From contig CP072538.1 of NCBI GenBank assembly GCA_021730105.1, forward strand, positions 1,115,161 through 1,179,160: a DNA stretch of 64,000 bases. The letters run 5' to 3'. This document shows, piece after piece, positions 5,780-64,000 of the stretch. The stretch is from Candidatus Ruthia sp. Plio_17_S18 (lineage in GTDB: Bacteria > Pseudomonadota > Gammaproteobacteria > PS1 > Pseudothioglobaceae). Every line of letters starts with the position of its first letter. Positions within the stretch are counted from its first letter, which is position 1. The position numbers were made by a program, and so were the translations under genes. Under the pieces are notes generated by a model, which was not told where the DNA came from, did no database searches, and saw only the letters and a program-made list of their open reading frames with translations.

Positions 5780-7297
5780 ATGTGTGGCATCGTTGGCATT
5801 TTATCTACCACTAAGAAAGATACTGCTGTTTATATTTATGATGCGTTGACCATTTTGCAGCATCGCGGTCAAGACGCAGCAGGCATCGTCACTGCTCATA
5901 AAGGGCGTTTTTATATGCGCAAGTCAAACGGCTTGGTTCGAAATGTCTTTAGAACTAAGCACATGACACAGTTGTTAGGAGATATGGGTATTGGCCATGT
6001 ACGTTACCCTACTGCAGGCAGCTCGTCCAATGCAGAGGCGCAGCCTTTTTATGTTAATTCGCCATACGGTATTGCGTTTGCACATAACGGCAACTTAACC
6101 AACACTGAACAACTGGCTCAAGAGTTATTTGAGCAAGACCTTCGCCATATCAACACCAACTCTGATTCAGAAATTTTACTCAATGTATTTGCCAGTGAAT
6201 TAGCCAAATTACAAAAACAACGCATTAACGAGACTGATATTTTTGCTTCTGTGACACAAGTACATAAGCGTGTACGCGGTGCTTATGCAACCATTGGCAT
6301 GATTCCAGGCTATGGTATTTTTGGCTTTAGAGACCCCAATGGTATTCGCCCATTAATTCTTGGCAAGCGCACCACTAAAGGCGGCACTAAATATATGTTA
6401 GCCTCTGAAAGCGTGGCGCTTAGCGCACTTGGTTATGAGATTACTCAAGATATCAAGCCAGGTGAAACGGTCGTTATTGACAGAGCAGGCAATACATTTA
6501 TTAAACAATGCGCAGAAAAACCCAAGCACTCACCTTGTATCTTTGAATTTGTTTATTTTGCCCGTCCAGACTCAGTCATTGATGATATTTCCGTGTACAA
6601 ATCTCGTTTAAGAATGGGAGAAAAACTAGCCATAAAAATTCGTAAAGAATGGGACATTAATGATATTGATATCGTTATTCCCATTCCTGATACTTCTAGA
6701 GTGGCTGCTTTACAACTGGCACATAAATTAGACGTTAAATACAGTGAGGGCCTAATTAAAAATCGATACATTGCTCGCACTTTTATCATGCCAGGGCAAA
6801 AACAGAGAAAAAAATCTGTGCGCCAAAAACTCAGCACAATTGAGCTTGAATTCAAAGGCAAAAATGTATTATTAGTTGATGATTCCATTGTGCGTGGCAC
6901 AACCAGTGAGCAAATTGTACAAATGGCTCGCGATGCTGGTGCTAATAAAGTGTTTTTTGCCTCAGCCGCGCCTGCTGTACGCTATCCTAATGTATATGGC
7001 ATTGATATGGCTAGCAACAAAGAATTTATTGCCCGCGATAGAGACACCAATCAAATCTGCAAAGCCATTGGTGCAGACAAGCTGATTTATCAAGATTTGA
7101 ATGACTTAATTTGGTGTGTGCAACAAGGCAATAAGGCAATTACCACGTTTGATTGCTCTTGTTTTAATGGTCAATACGTAACCGATGATATTGATAAAAG
7201 CTACCTTGCACATATTGAATCTTTACGAGGCGACCTTGCGAAAGAAGAAAACAACACCTTTGAGGTTTCTGAATTGATTGGTAATGATGTAGAATAG
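5780..7297 (+). CDS. purF: amidophosphoribosyltransferase
   Basis: First committed step of purine synthesis: PRPP + glutamine to phosphoribosylamine. The 505-aa product starts MCGIVGILS, with the catalytic Cys exposed after Met removal. It has the glutaminase motifs QHRGQDAAGI, GHVRYPTAGSSSNAEAQPF and HNGNLTN, and the PRPP loop VLLVDDSIVRGTTS. AGGAAATAACTT precedes the ATG. It follows cvpA by 10 bp and is followed by metZ after 25 bp, an arrangement seen in several gammaproteobacteria. Confidence 0.97.
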   Translation: MCGIVGILSTTKKDTAVYIYDALTILQHRGQDAAGIVTAHKGRFYMRKSNGLVRNVFRTKHMTQLLGDMGIGHVRYPTAGSSSNAEAQPFYVNSPYGIAFAHNGNLTNTEQLAQELFEQDLRHINTNSDSEILLNVFASELAKLQKQRINETDIFASVTQVHKRVRGAYATIGMIPGYGIFGFRDPNGIRPLILGKRTTKGGTKYMLASESVALSALGYEITQDIKPGETVVIDRAGNTFIKQCAEKPKHSPCIFEFVYFARPDSVIDDISVYKSRLRMGEKLAIKIRKEWDINDIDIVIPIPDTSRVAALQLAHKLDVKYSEGLIKNRYIARTFIMPGQKQRKKSVRQKLSTIELEFKGKNVLLVDDSIVRGTTSEQIVQMARDAGANKVFFASAAPAVRYPNVYGIDMASNKEFIARDRDTNQICKAIGADKLIYQDLNDLIWCVQQGNKAITTFDCSCFNGQYVTDDIDKSYLAHIESLRGDLAKEENNTFEVSELIGNDVE

Positions 7298-7322
7298 CGC
7301 TATTTAATGATTTTACAAACAC

Positions 7323-8489
7323 ATGAAAGATTTAAGCTTCGATACCAAAGCCATACGTACAGGTTATCGAACCACTGCTGAACAGGAACATTCTGAGGCA
7401 ATATTTTTAACCTCCAGTTTTGTTTTTGACTCAGCTGAACAAGCTGCCAACCGCTTTTCTAAAAAAGAACCGGGGAATATTTATGCACGTTTTACCAACC
7501 CGACGGTAGATGCCTTTGAAAAAAAATTAGCCGCACTTGAAGGTGCGCAAGCCTGTGTTGCCACTTCATCTGGCATGGCGGCAATCTTCGCCACTATTAT
7601 GGCACTGCTTAAATCGGGTGATCATATTGTTGCTTCTCGTAATATGTTTGGCACCTCAATTGTGCTATTAAACACCATTGTTGCTAAATTTAATATTGAC
7701 ATTAGTTTTGTAGACTTGTCTGACTTATCAGCATGGGAAAGTGCGGTTAAAAACAACACCAAACTTTTTTTACTTGAAACTCCATCCAATCCACTGGGTG
7801 AGATTGTAGATATTGCTACGCTTAGTAAAATATCAAAAGCCCATCATATTCTTTTGGCGGTTGACAATGCAATTTTAAGTCCTGCATTACAAAATCCTAT
7901 TGCCCTAGGTGCTGATATTGTGATTCACTCAGCCACTAAATATATTGATGGTCAAGGTAGATGCTTAGCAGGTGCCGTGGTCGGAAATGCTGATATTATT
8001 GAACAAGTTCATGGATTTGTGCGCACTACAGGCCCTAGTTTGAGTGCTTTTAATGCTTGGATTGTGCTTAAAGGACTAGACACCCTAAGTCTTAGAATGA
8101 GGGCGCACTCAGACAATGCGCTTACACTTGCCATCTGGCTTGAAGCCCAAGATCAGGTAGAAAAAGTCTATTATTTAGGCTTGCCTTCGCACCCTGATTA
8201 CAACTTAGCAATGTCCCAACAATCTGGTTTTGGTGGTATTGTATCGTTTGAAGTTAAAGGTGGACAAGAGTCGGCCTTTAAAATAATCAACGCTACCAAC
8301 GTACTTTCCATTACTGCTAATTTAGGTGATACAAAATCTACAATTACCCATTCAGCCACCACAACACACGGACGCTTAACTGATGAAGAAAGACTTGATG
8401 CTCATATAACGGATGGATTAATCAGAATATCTGTTGGACTAGAAGACATTAAAGACATCATTGCTGACATTAAGCAGACACTGGTATAA
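7323..8489 (+). CDS. metZ: O-succinylhomoserine sulfhydrylase
   Basis: PLP enzyme of the Cys/Met metabolism family; forms homocysteine directly from O-succinylhomoserine and sulfide. The 388-aa product has YARFTNPTVDAFE, the SSGMAAIFAT substrate loop, LLETPSNPLGEI and the PLP-lysine motif SATKYIDGQGR. The position right after purF is typical of metZ in gammaproteobacteria. Cystathionine gamma-synthase is the nearest alternative; context and sequence style favour MetZ. Direct sulfide use would suit a sulfur-oxidising cell. Confidence 0.9.
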   Translation: MKDLSFDTKAIRTGYRTTAEQEHSEAIFLTSSFVFDSAEQAANRFSKKEPGNIYARFTNPTVDAFEKKLAALEGAQACVATSSGMAAIFATIMALLKSGDHIVASRNMFGTSIVLLNTIVAKFNIDISFVDLSDLSAWESAVKNNTKLFLLETPSNPLGEIVDIATLSKISKAHHILLAVDNAILSPALQNPIALGADIVIHSATKYIDGQGRCLAGAVVGNADIIEQVHGFVRTTGPSLSAFNAWIVLKGLDTLSLRMRAHSDNALTLAIWLEAQDQVEKVYYLGLPSHPDYNLAMSQQSGFGGIVSFEVKGGQESAFKIINATNVLSITANLGDTKSTITHSATTTHGRLTDEERLDAHITDGLIRISVGLEDIKDIIADIKQTLV

Positions 8490-56757: not shown

Positions 56758-57371
56758 GTGATAAATATAATGCACTCTAGTAACACTAACATCAATATTA
56801 TGACTAGAATGTTTCATTGGTTCCTAATTGTTTTATTTATTACTCTTTTTATGACAGGTAATAACAATAATGGGGGTGATGCAATACACATTGTCTCGGG
56901 CTATTTATTAACCAGATTTGTACTAACAAGAATTATTTGGGGCTTTATGGATGATGAAAATGCCTTGTTGGGTAATTACTTGCATAGCCCAAAATCAATA
57001 CTCAATTACTTACTTAAACTGTTTAGTTCAACACCAACAGAGTTCAAAATACACAATCCTGCTGGCAGCATAATGATTTTAATAATGATGACTATGCTTG
57101 TCGCTATAGTTATAAGCGGCTTATTAATACAAGGTCTATTTGAATTAATGGTATATTTTTGTCGTTTGTTACTTATGTTAATGACCCGCAAGCCCTTATC
57201 GCAAACGAAATACACCTTATTTTGTCATACACCATGTTGATTGCAATTAGTTTCCACATTGTTAACGTTCTTTACTCAAGTTATATTTATAAAGCAAACC
57301 TTCCAATGATGATTACTGGAGAAACTACAGTTTTTAACAAAAAAAAGAAACCCAATAATGAAACTATATAA
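56758..57371 (+). pseudogene. frameshifted cytochrome b561-family gene
   Basis: The first frame (to 57240) carries MTRMFHWFLIVLFITLFMTG and HIVSGYLLTRFVLTRIIWGF (haem-ligand His in HWF and HIVSG) and GSIMILIMMTMLVAIVISGL; the final helix EIHLILSYTMLIAISFHIVNVLY lies in another frame (57159-57371). The shift is near 57165. This is the di-haem membrane cytochrome b that carries electrons to the SHP/DHC cytochromes, relics of which follow downstream. Confidence 0.75.
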
Positions 57372-60892: not shown

Positions 60893-61075
60893 CTAATAAA
60901 AGGCCGCTTCTAAGCGGTCCTCCCAATTATCAGGCACATCCACATAATCAGGCTTCACATCCATCCTAAAAAACCGCTCATCAGACCCCTTGGACACCTG
61001 TTTCAAAACCACAACCAACGTCTCAAAATTCTCCACTTGAGGATTGGCAATAATTACTTCACTCAATAATAACAT
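60893..61075 (-). CDS. small hypothetical protein upstream of the trp operon
   Basis: 60 aa: LSEVIIANPQVENFETLVVVL, then KQVSKGSDERFFRMDVKPDY and a DNWEDRLEAAF end. No membrane helix and no known motif. It shares the strand and close spacing (10 bp) with the 235-aa gene and trpF-trpB. A TTG at codon 4 is a possible alternative start. Real-gene status rests on spacing and clean amino-acid composition. Confidence 0.6.
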   Translation of the reverse strand: MLLLSEVIIANPQVENFETLVVVLKQVSKGSDERFFRMDVKPDYVDVPDNWEDRLEAAFY

Positions 61076-61095: not shown

Positions 61096-61754
61096 CTAGC
61101 ATTTTACGCTCACATTAGAATCAACACTTACGATAAAAAGGTTTTTACTATCAGTATTTTTAAAGATTGCTGCGGTCAATTTTCCACCATACACACAACC
61201 TGTGGTCAATATCGAGAGCATATTGGCTGATTTTCACCTCGTTAAATTGTTGATGCCCATAAACCACAAAACCTTAATTTCCATCATATATCTGCAAAAA
61301 AAATCGATTTATCGCTTTCCTCGCCAAAGGCTAAAAAATTATGATCTTGATCTAAGAAACGCAATCTAAGAATTTTTGGTGATTCTGTAGACCGACATGC
61401 AAAATAGTAATTTTTCCGAATTGCATAAATAACGGCATATTTTTTAAATAACTCATATCTGAATTGTTTAAATTTAAAATAATACTTTGTTCGTCATTAT
61501 CCAATATAATCGGGCTCTTCTTGGTGCTTTACAATGCTGTAAATAACGAATAACCTTATCTTCATGATTGCCTAGAACAGATTAATATTGTTGGCTTGTA
61601 AATACCTAAGTGTTTTAATAGAGTCCTTGCCGCGAGTAATAATATCTCCAACACAAACCTCTGTATCATTTTTTACTGGGTTTATTTTTTGTCGTAATTT
61701 CGCCAATTCATCCTAGCAACCATGAATATCACCATAAACAATTAGTCTGCTCAT
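61096..61754 (-). pseudogene. decayed calcineurin-like metallophosphatase (PPP/ApaH-like)
   Basis: ATG 61754 starts MSRLIVYGDIHGC, then TAG, then DELAKLRQKINPVKNDTEV and VGDIITRGKDSIKTLRYL; a shifted frame gives VLGNHEDK. These are the metal-binding GDxHG, GDxxxRG and GNHE motifs of the family. Further blocks to the C-terminus (a CVYGGKLTAAIF and VSVDSNVSV ending at TAG 61096) follow after several stops. Its ATG overlaps the TGA of the DGQHR gene (ATGA), so it was translationally coupled to it. Confidence 0.75.
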
Positions 61755-62967
61755 GAACTAAGTTCAAAATGATCGTGTATGTTTTTAAGAAAGTTCACCT
61801 CTTCCTTGTTAAGTCCTTTTTCTTTGGTTGCCTTATGAGCCCATAAGTTTCTGTATTTGTTAAACTGTGAAATCCATTTCACTTTATCTGATTTGCCATT
61901 AAACCCTAGACCAGCATCAATAGAAAACAAATCTTGAGATGATTTAAATCGATTATCGTCTGGCAAGTTTTTAGACCAGTGTTTTTCTATAATTGCCTTA
62001 TAGTCGTTGATATTAAACATTCCCTGCCAGTCGACTTCTTCATTTCCAAGTCCATCTTTATAATTTTTCTGTTTCTCTTGTTCTGCACACTCCAGGAACT
62101 TATTCCTAACATGACATAACTCCGCAATCCCAGTCTTTACCAAATAACTTTTTTAAATTGCATAAGCATTTGGAATCTTCAACACCCCCAGTTTTGAAGA
62201 CGAACCCTCTGTTCTTTTGATAAAATAAAAACCTAATTTACTGTGCTTTGTTTGACTAAAATTAACAATGATTGAGTTTGGAAAATATCGGCCTTCATCA
62301 ATAAAGTTAGTAATTCCTTTTAGTCTAGAAGGAACTAATAATCGCTGATAGGTTGAAAAGTCTGATTCATTAGCCTTTGCTCTATGTAATATATACCCGA
62401 CTTTTAATAATAAACTTGGTTCAATAGCAAGTACCTCTATTTTTTATCATTAATTTTTGCATTTTTAAACACCAGTACTAAAAATTGATACCGAGCAGCA
62501 TTTTTATAGTTTTTAATTAAATTTTGAATGTAGAGATAGGTATTGTCATTGTAATAAAAGGATCTTGCTTCTTTTAACCTTTTTAAATCGTAACTATCCA
62601 CACCCATTCTTAGATTCTTTGTGGCAAAAACATACTTAATCTTAATTTTTCTATTTAACACCTGCTCCATTGACTTTTTAAACCAGTTTAAGCAAATCAA
62701 ATTCATCTTTATAAGAGGGTGCTTTTTTTGACTTCTCACTAGATTTGCATTCAACAATAAACACTGTGTCATCGTCAATAGCAATAATATCTATTTGCTT
62801 TTTGTTTTTAACTCTTTATCTAGTTCCCCACCCTTTGCCTAAAGAATGGTCAACGCTTTTGGATTGGTATGGGTTTTTCTTTGCTCTATATATTTTGCCA
62901 AGTTGTGATGGATCGCTTGTTAATTTTTTTGTAACTTAACTTAATTGATGCAGTTCTAAAAAGCTCA
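61751..62967 (-). pseudogene. decayed DGQHR-domain protein with nuclease-like N-terminus and Swt1-type HEPN C-terminus
   Basis: ATG 62967 begins 3 bp after the methyltransferase stop. Fragments in order: MSFLELHQLS; QIDIIAIDDDTVFIVECKSS (D...ECK, PD-(D/E)XK-like); KYVFATKNLRMGVDSYDLKRLK; LIKNYKNAARYQFLVLVF; EPSLLLKVGYILHRA; YQRLLVPSRLKGITNFIDEG; RYFPNSIIVNFSQ; KLGVLKIPNAYAI, after which the core DGQHR motif itself is deleted; then LFGKDWDCGVMS, and after a frameshift the HEPN part WISQFNKYRNLWAHKATKEKGL (RNxxAH-like RNLWAH). DGQHR proteins include DndB-type factors of DNA modification. At least four frame breaks. Confidence 0.7.
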
Positions 62968-62970
62968 TTT

Positions 62971-63850
62971 TCACACTCCATTTGTCATAATTATTTCCGA
63001 ATATTTTCCACGTTCTGCTCCAATACCACCAATTGAACTATTTCTTTCCATGATGGTAGTCTTGTCTTTATGAATTCCAAATATTAACTTCAGACTTTCA
63101 TGGTTAGCATTAGTCATAATATAAAAAGCGTTAGTCTCTTTTATTTGTCCAATCATATCTGACAATCTTCTTTGATCATCAAGTGAAAATATTTTTTTGT
63201 TATACTCAATAAAGCCGTTATTGTTGTGAGTTACTGTATAAGGAGGATCAATAAATACTAAATCACCCTCTTTTATATTGGACATTGTTTCTTGAAAATC
63301 TCCACTATTAATAGCCACATTTTTCAAAACTTGACTCACTTTTTTTAAGTTATCGTAATCAAATTGATATTTTTCTCTATATCCGTAGGGTACATTGTAT
63401 TCTCCCATTGAATTTACCCTGTAAATACCATTAAAAGACATTTGATTTAAATAGATAAACTGGGCGGCTTGTTGATACGAGTTTTTATACTTAGCTCCTC
63501 TTACTTTGTAATAGTAGTCTTTAGAGTTTTTAAATTTTTTTAAATGTTCTACAATTAAATCTACACAATCCTTAACCATGGCGGCGTAGGCATTGATTAA
63601 ATCTTGGTTAGAATCTGAAATAAAAGGTTTTTCTGGATGTAGATGAAAAAAAAATAGAACCGCCACCAATAAAAGGCTCATGATATTGATTAAAGCCATT
63701 TTTTGGCAAGAAATGATCTAAGTGTTTTTTTAACCATCTTTTGCCTCCAGCCCACCTCAAAAAAGGATGACAAGAGTCGATCTGATGAAACAAAACATGG
63801 TCAGATATGACCTTCTTATTTAAAGAAGCACTACCTATTATATTTTGCAT
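62971..63850 (-). pseudogene. D12-class DNA adenine-N6 methyltransferase with a single frameshift in a T9 tract
   Basis: The N-terminal frame (63850 to about 63648) carries [15 protein letters not shown] (motif X) and [13 protein letters not shown] (motif I, SAM); the C-terminal frame carries [48 protein letters not shown] (motif IV, DPPY) and a complete end to TGA 62971. The only damage is a minus-strand T9 run (plus-strand A9 at 63646-63654): T8 would give one continuous ORF of about 292 aa, a normal size. All catalytic motifs are intact. It could be a recent pseudogene, or be expressed by polymerase slippage, or be phase-variable. Confidence 0.85.
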
Positions 63851-63873: not shown

Positions 63874-64000
63874 CTAAAAAAATTTTACAATATTTTTTTT
63901 AGTACTGGGCTTGGCTTTGGCTTTTATTTTACCAGCAACTGCTTTTTTGCATTCTTCAAGGGTTAGATCGGCTGGGGTTTTATCACCGAAGACTTTTTTG
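63874..64000 (-). CDS. C-terminus of a larger protein, possibly DNA topoisomerase I (5' part outside window)
   Basis: An open minus-strand frame enters from the right edge and ends at TAG 63874-63876. It reads [20 protein letters not shown], then a basic Lys-rich tail ([18 protein letters not shown]). A P-x-DLTLEE-type block followed by a basic tail is seen at the end of some topoisomerase I proteins. Only 41 residues are visible, so the identity is a suggestion. Confidence 0.4.

Follow-up and report, generated by a model that had tools for sequence, protein, structure and literature searches.

Remnants of a methyltransferase–DGQHR gene pair beside topA in a Candidatus Ruthia genome, and its intact relatives in other bacteria

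The window analysed here is a stretch of 64,000 nucleotides (positions 1115161–1179160) from the single-contig genome of Candidatus Ruthia sp. Plio_17_S18, which contains 1,231,801 bases and most likely belongs to a genome-reduced symbiont of clams. Between positions 63850 and 61114 it carries three broken genes on the minus strand, in the order adenine DNA methyltransferase (MTase), DGQHR gene and metallophosphatase (MPE), directly preceded by the 3' end of topA at 63874 (Table 1). The initial annotation had described three coupled genes in the course of being lost. Both points hold: all three genes lie on the minus strand and all are decayed, with a frameshift, stops, frame breaks and deletions across them. 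Read from the DNA, the DGQHR stop overlaps the MPE start as ATGA, exactly as annotated, and the MTase–DGQHR junction is TGA-AA-ATG; the close junction is thus real, but stop and start are separated by 2 nt and not, as had been stated, by 3 bp. An intact open frame from a genome of the same family matches the window at E = 3.0e-105, which is far beyond chance. The window cluster is a dead copy of a cassette, and the locus is being lost in this genome. Elsewhere in the window, at 56758–57371, two overlapping ORFs in different frames resemble a single membrane gene broken by a frameshift, perhaps of cytochrome b561 type, as a further sign of decay near the cluster.

Table 1. Features at the topA-proximal end of the window
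Feature	Positions	Strand	Basis
topA 3' end, one border of the variable slot	63874..64000	-	Synteny in relatives
Dam-family (D12 class) adenine DNA MTase pseudogene, DPPY motif present	62971..63850	-	PF02086, TIGR00571
DGQHR-protein pseudogene (PD-(D/E)XK, ParB/Srx core, HEPN-like C-terminus)	61751..62968	-	Piecewise alignment to the 784-aa protein of G019
PD-(D/E)XK remnant with QID...ECK motif (QIDII...VECKSS)	62681..62815	-	Sequence; conservation; fold match of a relative
DndB/DGQHR (ParB/Srx) core remnant, to 'KIPNAYAI'	62156..62443	-	65% identity to the G019 protein from residue 245
C-terminal HEPN-like segment	61754..62122	-	59% identity to G019 residues 661–782
RNLWAH (HEPN Rx4H) motif	61835..61852	-	Sequence; R and H invariant in 22/22 same-subtype relatives
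PPP-family metallophosphatase pseudogene	61114..61754	-	tblastn with the intact L011 protein; sub-cut-off NCBIfam PPP matches
Conserved 60-aa ORF, other slot border	60893..61075	-	Order same in relatives examined

The assignment of the first gene to the adenine methyltransferases is borne out by domain models. PF02086 matches its two pieces at 5e-8 and 6e-34, and the pieces joined with X score 209.5 bits against TIGR00571 (dam; cut-off 114.85), to which intact MTases score 213 and 238 bits. Identity to the intact MTase of L012 is 67–73%, and the related MTase of genome G025 has M.DpnIIA (2dpm, 171 bits) as its best match of solved structure. The window gene is split by a single frameshift, located where the coding strand has nine consecutive T (63654–63646). 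Because this is a nine-base homopolymer, slippage or a sequencing or assembly error could hide a working frame, and methylation by the product of this gene could in principle remain in the window symbiont.

The DGQHR gene is interrupted by stops and frame breaks, has two internal deletions, and aligns piecewise to an intact relative at 49–77% identity. The decayed copy reaches 36.8 bits with TIGR03187, under the cut-off of 58.85; intact relatives score 120–124 bits for the DGQHR domain (TIGR03187/PF14072). The annotated sequence of a PD-(D/E)XK-like ECK site, a DndB-like core and a HEPN end stands as a reading of the domains, with HEPN a moderate call. The core itself is present in the window as a remnant only; the DGQHR motif, expected right after 'KIPNAYAI', has gone with one deletion of approximately 300 aa. 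The other deletion has shortened the N-terminal domain by approximately 50 aa.

An AlphaFold2 model of the G025 protein (mean pLDDT 87.5) gives a fuller picture of the intact form. Residues 71–208 match PD-(D/E)XK folds (1y88, Z 11.4; N.BspD6I, 8.3; FokI, 7.8; Card1/Can2, around 8), and residues 240–390 match ParB with CDP (Z 8.5) and sulfiredoxin (Srx; Z 6.0). Across 71 full-length relatives, the putative nuclease residues are D112 (100%), E125 (99%), C126 (100%) and K127 (97%; the G025 protein itself has R there). The DGQHR motif is invariant in 71/71, and the QR pair and FxxxN vary little or not at all; these three motifs have been given for GmrS/DUF262 and the DGQHR domain (PMC4619093). 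The second protein of the cassette is thus modelled as a PD-(D/E)XK nuclease domain followed by a ParB/Srx domain, which is predicted from fold and motif to bind a nucleotide. The C-terminal half, which is helical, carries RNxxxH in the window subtype, with N nearly always present in addition to the R and H; this motif is lost in 24 of the 71 full-length relatives. HEPN fold matches are weak (Csm6, Z 5.4 and 4.2), and since unrelated helical proteins score equally high, we make no fold claim for this half. Pfam HEPN families, including the Swt1-like one, match below threshold only, so that the HEPN assignment is of moderate strength. Searching PDB sequences with the DGQHR protein or its profile gave no match.

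A scan of approximately 85,000 GTDB species genomes found 331 stretches that encode relatives, and the best 80 of these yielded the 79 related loci considered below. Their record titles name Gamma-, Beta- and Alphaproteobacteria, Bacteroidota, Sulfurovum, Clostridia and others. In genome G019, of the same family as the window genome, the trio is intact, its genes being distributed over two contigs (L012 and L011), and the junctions overlap; the intact three-gene cluster that the initial annotation had proposed to look for therefore exists. It had also asked whether intact homologues are neighbours elsewhere, and for two of the genes they are: a Dam-family MTase gene adjoins the DGQHR gene in 71 of the 79 loci, nearly always upstream and on the same strand. 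Of the other eight, five lie at contig edges; L095 carries a D12 MTase of a different kind (72 bits), L070 combines R.DpnII with an N6_N4 MTase, and L038 is the sole non-edge locus of the 79 at which no MTase gene was seen beside the DGQHR gene. Among 60 clean pairs the two genes lie -4 to 113 nt apart in 48, around 450–490 nt in nine and around 900 nt in three, the larger gaps containing a DUF7226 gene or R.DpnII. Relatives drawn from unselected surveys (G025, G154, G167 and G573) have the MTase as well, and the MTase and DGQHR proteins co-diverge, with a matrix correlation of 0.63 that was reached by none of 2000 permutations.

The DGQHR gene appears split or interrupted also in L023, L051, L054, L080 and L092, as if the cassette had been lost repeatedly. 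In the G025 cassette the MTase is preceded, at a distance of approximately 360 nt, by an HTH plus ImmA/IrrE-type protease gene (L017, 229–1353). On plasmid pNL1 (L014, 5692–12190) and an Agrobacterium plasmid (L016, 5665–12369), distantly related proteins with the architecture of the DGQHR protein are encoded near a conserved trio of small DGQHR protein, radical SAM protein and HSP90-like ATPase, which may be a further unnamed system and has no MTase gene beside it. Plasmids otherwise gave only distant or partial relatives. A tblastn search of 50,697 phage records with the window protein found nothing, the same search with an intact relative covered only 30% of it, over the DGQHR domain, and a scan of viral contigs found no relative.

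The relatives fall into three subtypes. Subtype A (43 full-length loci) consists of the MTase and an effector with RNxxxH. Subtype B (24 loci) has the MTase and an effector without RNxxxH; most members add an SF2/ResIII helicase, and some a DUF7226 gene or an N6_N4 MTase. Subtype C (L070 and L089–L091) combines R.DpnII, an effector that keeps RNxxxH and an N6_N4 MTase. The helicase is found beside 21 of 24 motif-less full-length relatives and none of 47 motif-bearing ones. However, because the motif-less proteins form one clade, restricted to Bacteroidota and Clostridia, this split is one evolutionary event and not repeated evidence.

The interval between topA and the 60-aa gene is a slot whose contents differ among sister genomes, the window genome (G000) holding the present cluster. 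In G004, a clam symbiont, it holds an intact D12 MTase, R.DpnII (308 bits) and a second MTase; this operon (L126, 2678–6029) runs M.DpnII-like gene, 204-aa protein with no Pfam match, R.DpnII, short ORF and second MTase. Broken, decaying versions of the same M/R.DpnII system occupy the slots of G007 and G011. G008 has an MTase fragment together with a PLD nuclease fused to a DpnI_C (Dam-replacing HTH) domain (L128, 4038–4781), which from its sequence looks like a nuclease dependent on G6mATC. A phosphatase remnant lies in the slot of G024, several hundred bases with no recognisable restriction gene in those of G001, G002, G003, G005 and G010, and in G013 and G015 the slot is reduced to an almost direct junction. 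These contents suggest that the topA slot is a site of DpnI/DpnII-like exchange in clam symbionts, resembling the choice between DpnI and DpnII systems in pneumococci as outlined in PMC3573125.

Since the slot of sister symbionts holds a DpnII system or a PLD-DpnI-type reader of GATC, the cassette is probably GATC-linked too. The circumstantial case is that the MTase–DGQHR pair does the same kind of job at the same site as the systems of its slot-mates, and the target of the MTase, judged from its sequence relationships, is probably GATC. At L089–L091, R.DpnII (PF04556, 316 bits) sits between the MTase and the DGQHR gene. At these loci and at L070, where R.DpnII is present, restriction cannot be the work of the DGQHR protein alone.

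We consider it somewhat probable that the pair is a two-gene defence cassette of restriction-modification (RM) type, with a nucleotide-gated DNase, perhaps also an RNase, and a rare accessory phosphatase. The host chromosome would be marked by the MTase through adenine methylation at a short sequence, probably GATC. The ParB/Srx (DGQHR) domain would bind a nucleotide as a switch or sensor of DNA state and, on unmarked DNA, activate the PD-(D/E)XK DNase at the N-terminus. Where RNxxxH is kept, the C-terminal HEPN-like domain may also cleave RNA and so arrest growth as a back-up; the motif-less subtype lacks RNxxxH, and an SF2 helicase gene stands alongside in most of its members. We infer the defence function, site specificity, direction of gating and nuclease activities from sequence, predicted fold and gene order. 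Counting against this reading are the weak HEPN fold match, the loci that also have R.DpnII, the many cassette neighbourhoods that resemble ordinary chromosomal genes and not defence islands, and the distant same-architecture proteins of pNL1 and the Agrobacterium plasmid, which have no MTase next door. A bolder form, which we hold to be doubtful, would see a widespread undescribed RM class in which one protein joins a ParB-like switch, a PD-(D/E)XK DNase and a HEPN RNase under the control of GATC methylation, a helicase replacing the lost RNase motif in the second subtype.

The direction of gating could also be the reverse. In an SspE-like, mark-licensed effector the methylated host site would stimulate an NTPase and prime cutting or nicking of the unmarked invader, so that the MTase would be needed for activation too. 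The DGQHR domain shares its QR, DGQxR and FxxxN motifs with GmrS/DUF262 (PMC4619093); SspE, with a related domain, needs the host's own modification, which stimulates it, and nucleotide hydrolysis (PMC9646914), which counts against simple RM gating; and for Dazbog, recognition of methylated DNA by its DUF262 has been reported to be likely (PMC10952713). However, the nuclease of the cassette is PD-(D/E)XK and not HNH, and lies at the opposite end of the protein; no modification-binding pocket was identified; and a plain DpnII system can occupy the same slot, which favours simple restriction. We regard licensing by the mark as unlikely.

A HEPN-like segment fused to a DNase also brings to mind abortive infection. 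PrrC guards EcoprrI, and the DGQHR protein might likewise be a suicide nuclease, acting on DNA, RNA or both, that fires when a phage inhibits or titrates the MTase or a partner R-M system. This would fit the invariance of R and H of RNxxxH in one subtype (22/22) and the co-occurrence of R.DpnII at four loci. It would not explain why the PD-(D/E)XK residues are better conserved than the HEPN motif, nor why a whole clade without that motif still keeps the MTase pair, and we find such a guard improbable.

That the pair has no part in defence, and consists of an orphan Dam-type MTase and a DndB-like transcriptional regulator that together regulate by methylation, is very improbable: DndB has been described as regulating the modification genes of its own system (PMC4507180; PMC12707154), but the cassette protein has a conserved nuclease active site within a three-part architecture of 780 aa, is paired with R.DpnII or a helicase, and belongs to a slot that holds other restriction systems.

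The initial annotation had treated the three genes as the system. The intact trio of G019 agrees with that proposal as far as gene content goes; the three as a unit are not supported, because of the distribution of MPE. The window MPE has PPP-type motifs and several breaks, and its best NCBIfam match is symmetrical Ap4A hydrolase (75 bits, below cut-off). It recurs in only two of the 79 related loci, L045 (which is G019) and Sulfurovum L088, and as a 105-aa remnant adjoining the slot border in G024. L088 has MTase, DGQHR gene and MPE in the same order, with 57.6% identity for MPE; in this otherwise complete cassette, DNA that includes an ISAzo13-type transposase ORF interrupts the DGQHR gene at a point separating the nuclease domain from the ParB/Srx domain (6510–8001). 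On this rarity we reject MPE as a core component and read it as a rare accessory to a two-gene core of MTase and DGQHR protein; it looks like an accessory common to a few genomes of the symbiont family and Sulfurovum. A functional three-gene system, for example with an RNA-end or nucleotide phosphatase serving the HEPN-like nuclease, would suit the overlapping or nearly overlapping genes of the window and G019, the shared order in Sulfurovum and the MPE remnant in the G024 slot, yet it has very little probability when 77 of 79 related loci keep the pair without MPE.

If the RM-type reading is true, a recurrent unnamed cassette (331 stretches in approximately 85,000 species genomes) links classical restriction-modification to ParB/Srx NTPase effectors such as SspE and GmrSD, and perhaps also to suicide RNases of the HEPN type. 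The cassette would explain many proteins annotated only as 'DGQHR domain-containing' beside Dam, and offers two-gene constructs that can be tested. The symbiont genomes would document how GATC systems replace one another in a single chromosomal slot and decay as the lineage becomes host-bound.

The statement that no named system has this gene set agrees with what we found: PADLOC, NCBIfam and Pfam supply only domain-level names and no model that names the cassette. The papers found, including those on DndB, GmrSD, SspE and HEPN proteins, neither name nor describe the MTase–DGQHR pair, subscription papers, preprints and REBASE lying outside the search. A methylome paper on Prevotella intermedia reports two GATC MTases and no DndB homologue. 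As for particular families, R.DpnII (PF04556) occurs at only four of the related loci and not in the window cluster. GmrSD type IV was rejected, GmrSD_N matching only one of 29 members (E around 0.08) and DUF1524 being absent from the 25 families listed; so were Dnd (DndB score 30 of 328 bits, no recurrent dnd-like gene family among the neighbours) and Dpd (DpdB score 62.8 of 300 bits). No PADLOC model of PD-T4-2 matches the cassette.

The cassette nevertheless has likenesses to several known systems. With Type II R-M it shares an MTase gene paired with a nuclease gene (71 of 79 loci), the nuclease being recognised by its PD-(D/E)XK fold and conserved D, E and K. To the DpnII/MboI (GATC) systems it is tied by an MTase closest to M.DpnIIA, by the common slot in sister symbionts and by loci that combine both, whereas its partner protein is not R.DpnII but a 780-aa protein of PD-(D/E)XK, ParB/Srx and HEPN-like parts. 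SspE of SspABCD-SspE likewise brings together a ParB/Srx-type NTPase domain with DGQxR motif, a nuclease and a host DNA mark; however, SspE consists of DUF262 and a DUF1524 nuclease and goes with a phosphorothioate mark, in contrast to the DGQHR domain, PD-(D/E)XK nuclease and putative adenine methylation of the cassette. GmrSD/BrxU have the QR, DGQxR and FxxxN motifs and the single-chain NTPase–nuclease design in common with it, but GmrSD has no partner MTase, cuts modified DNA and belongs to different domain families. DndB (Dnd) and DpdB (Dpd) contain the same DGQHR/PF14072 domain, whereas the cassette protein has extra nuclease domains and an MTase gene as neighbour in place of dnd or dpd genes. 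PD-T4-2 has been described with both DUF262 and a HEPN domain, and is set apart by that description, which gives neither an MTase link nor PD-(D/E)XK. The individual domains are already known, and their pairing with the MTase looks like an unnamed, RM-like cousin of the restriction-modification systems.
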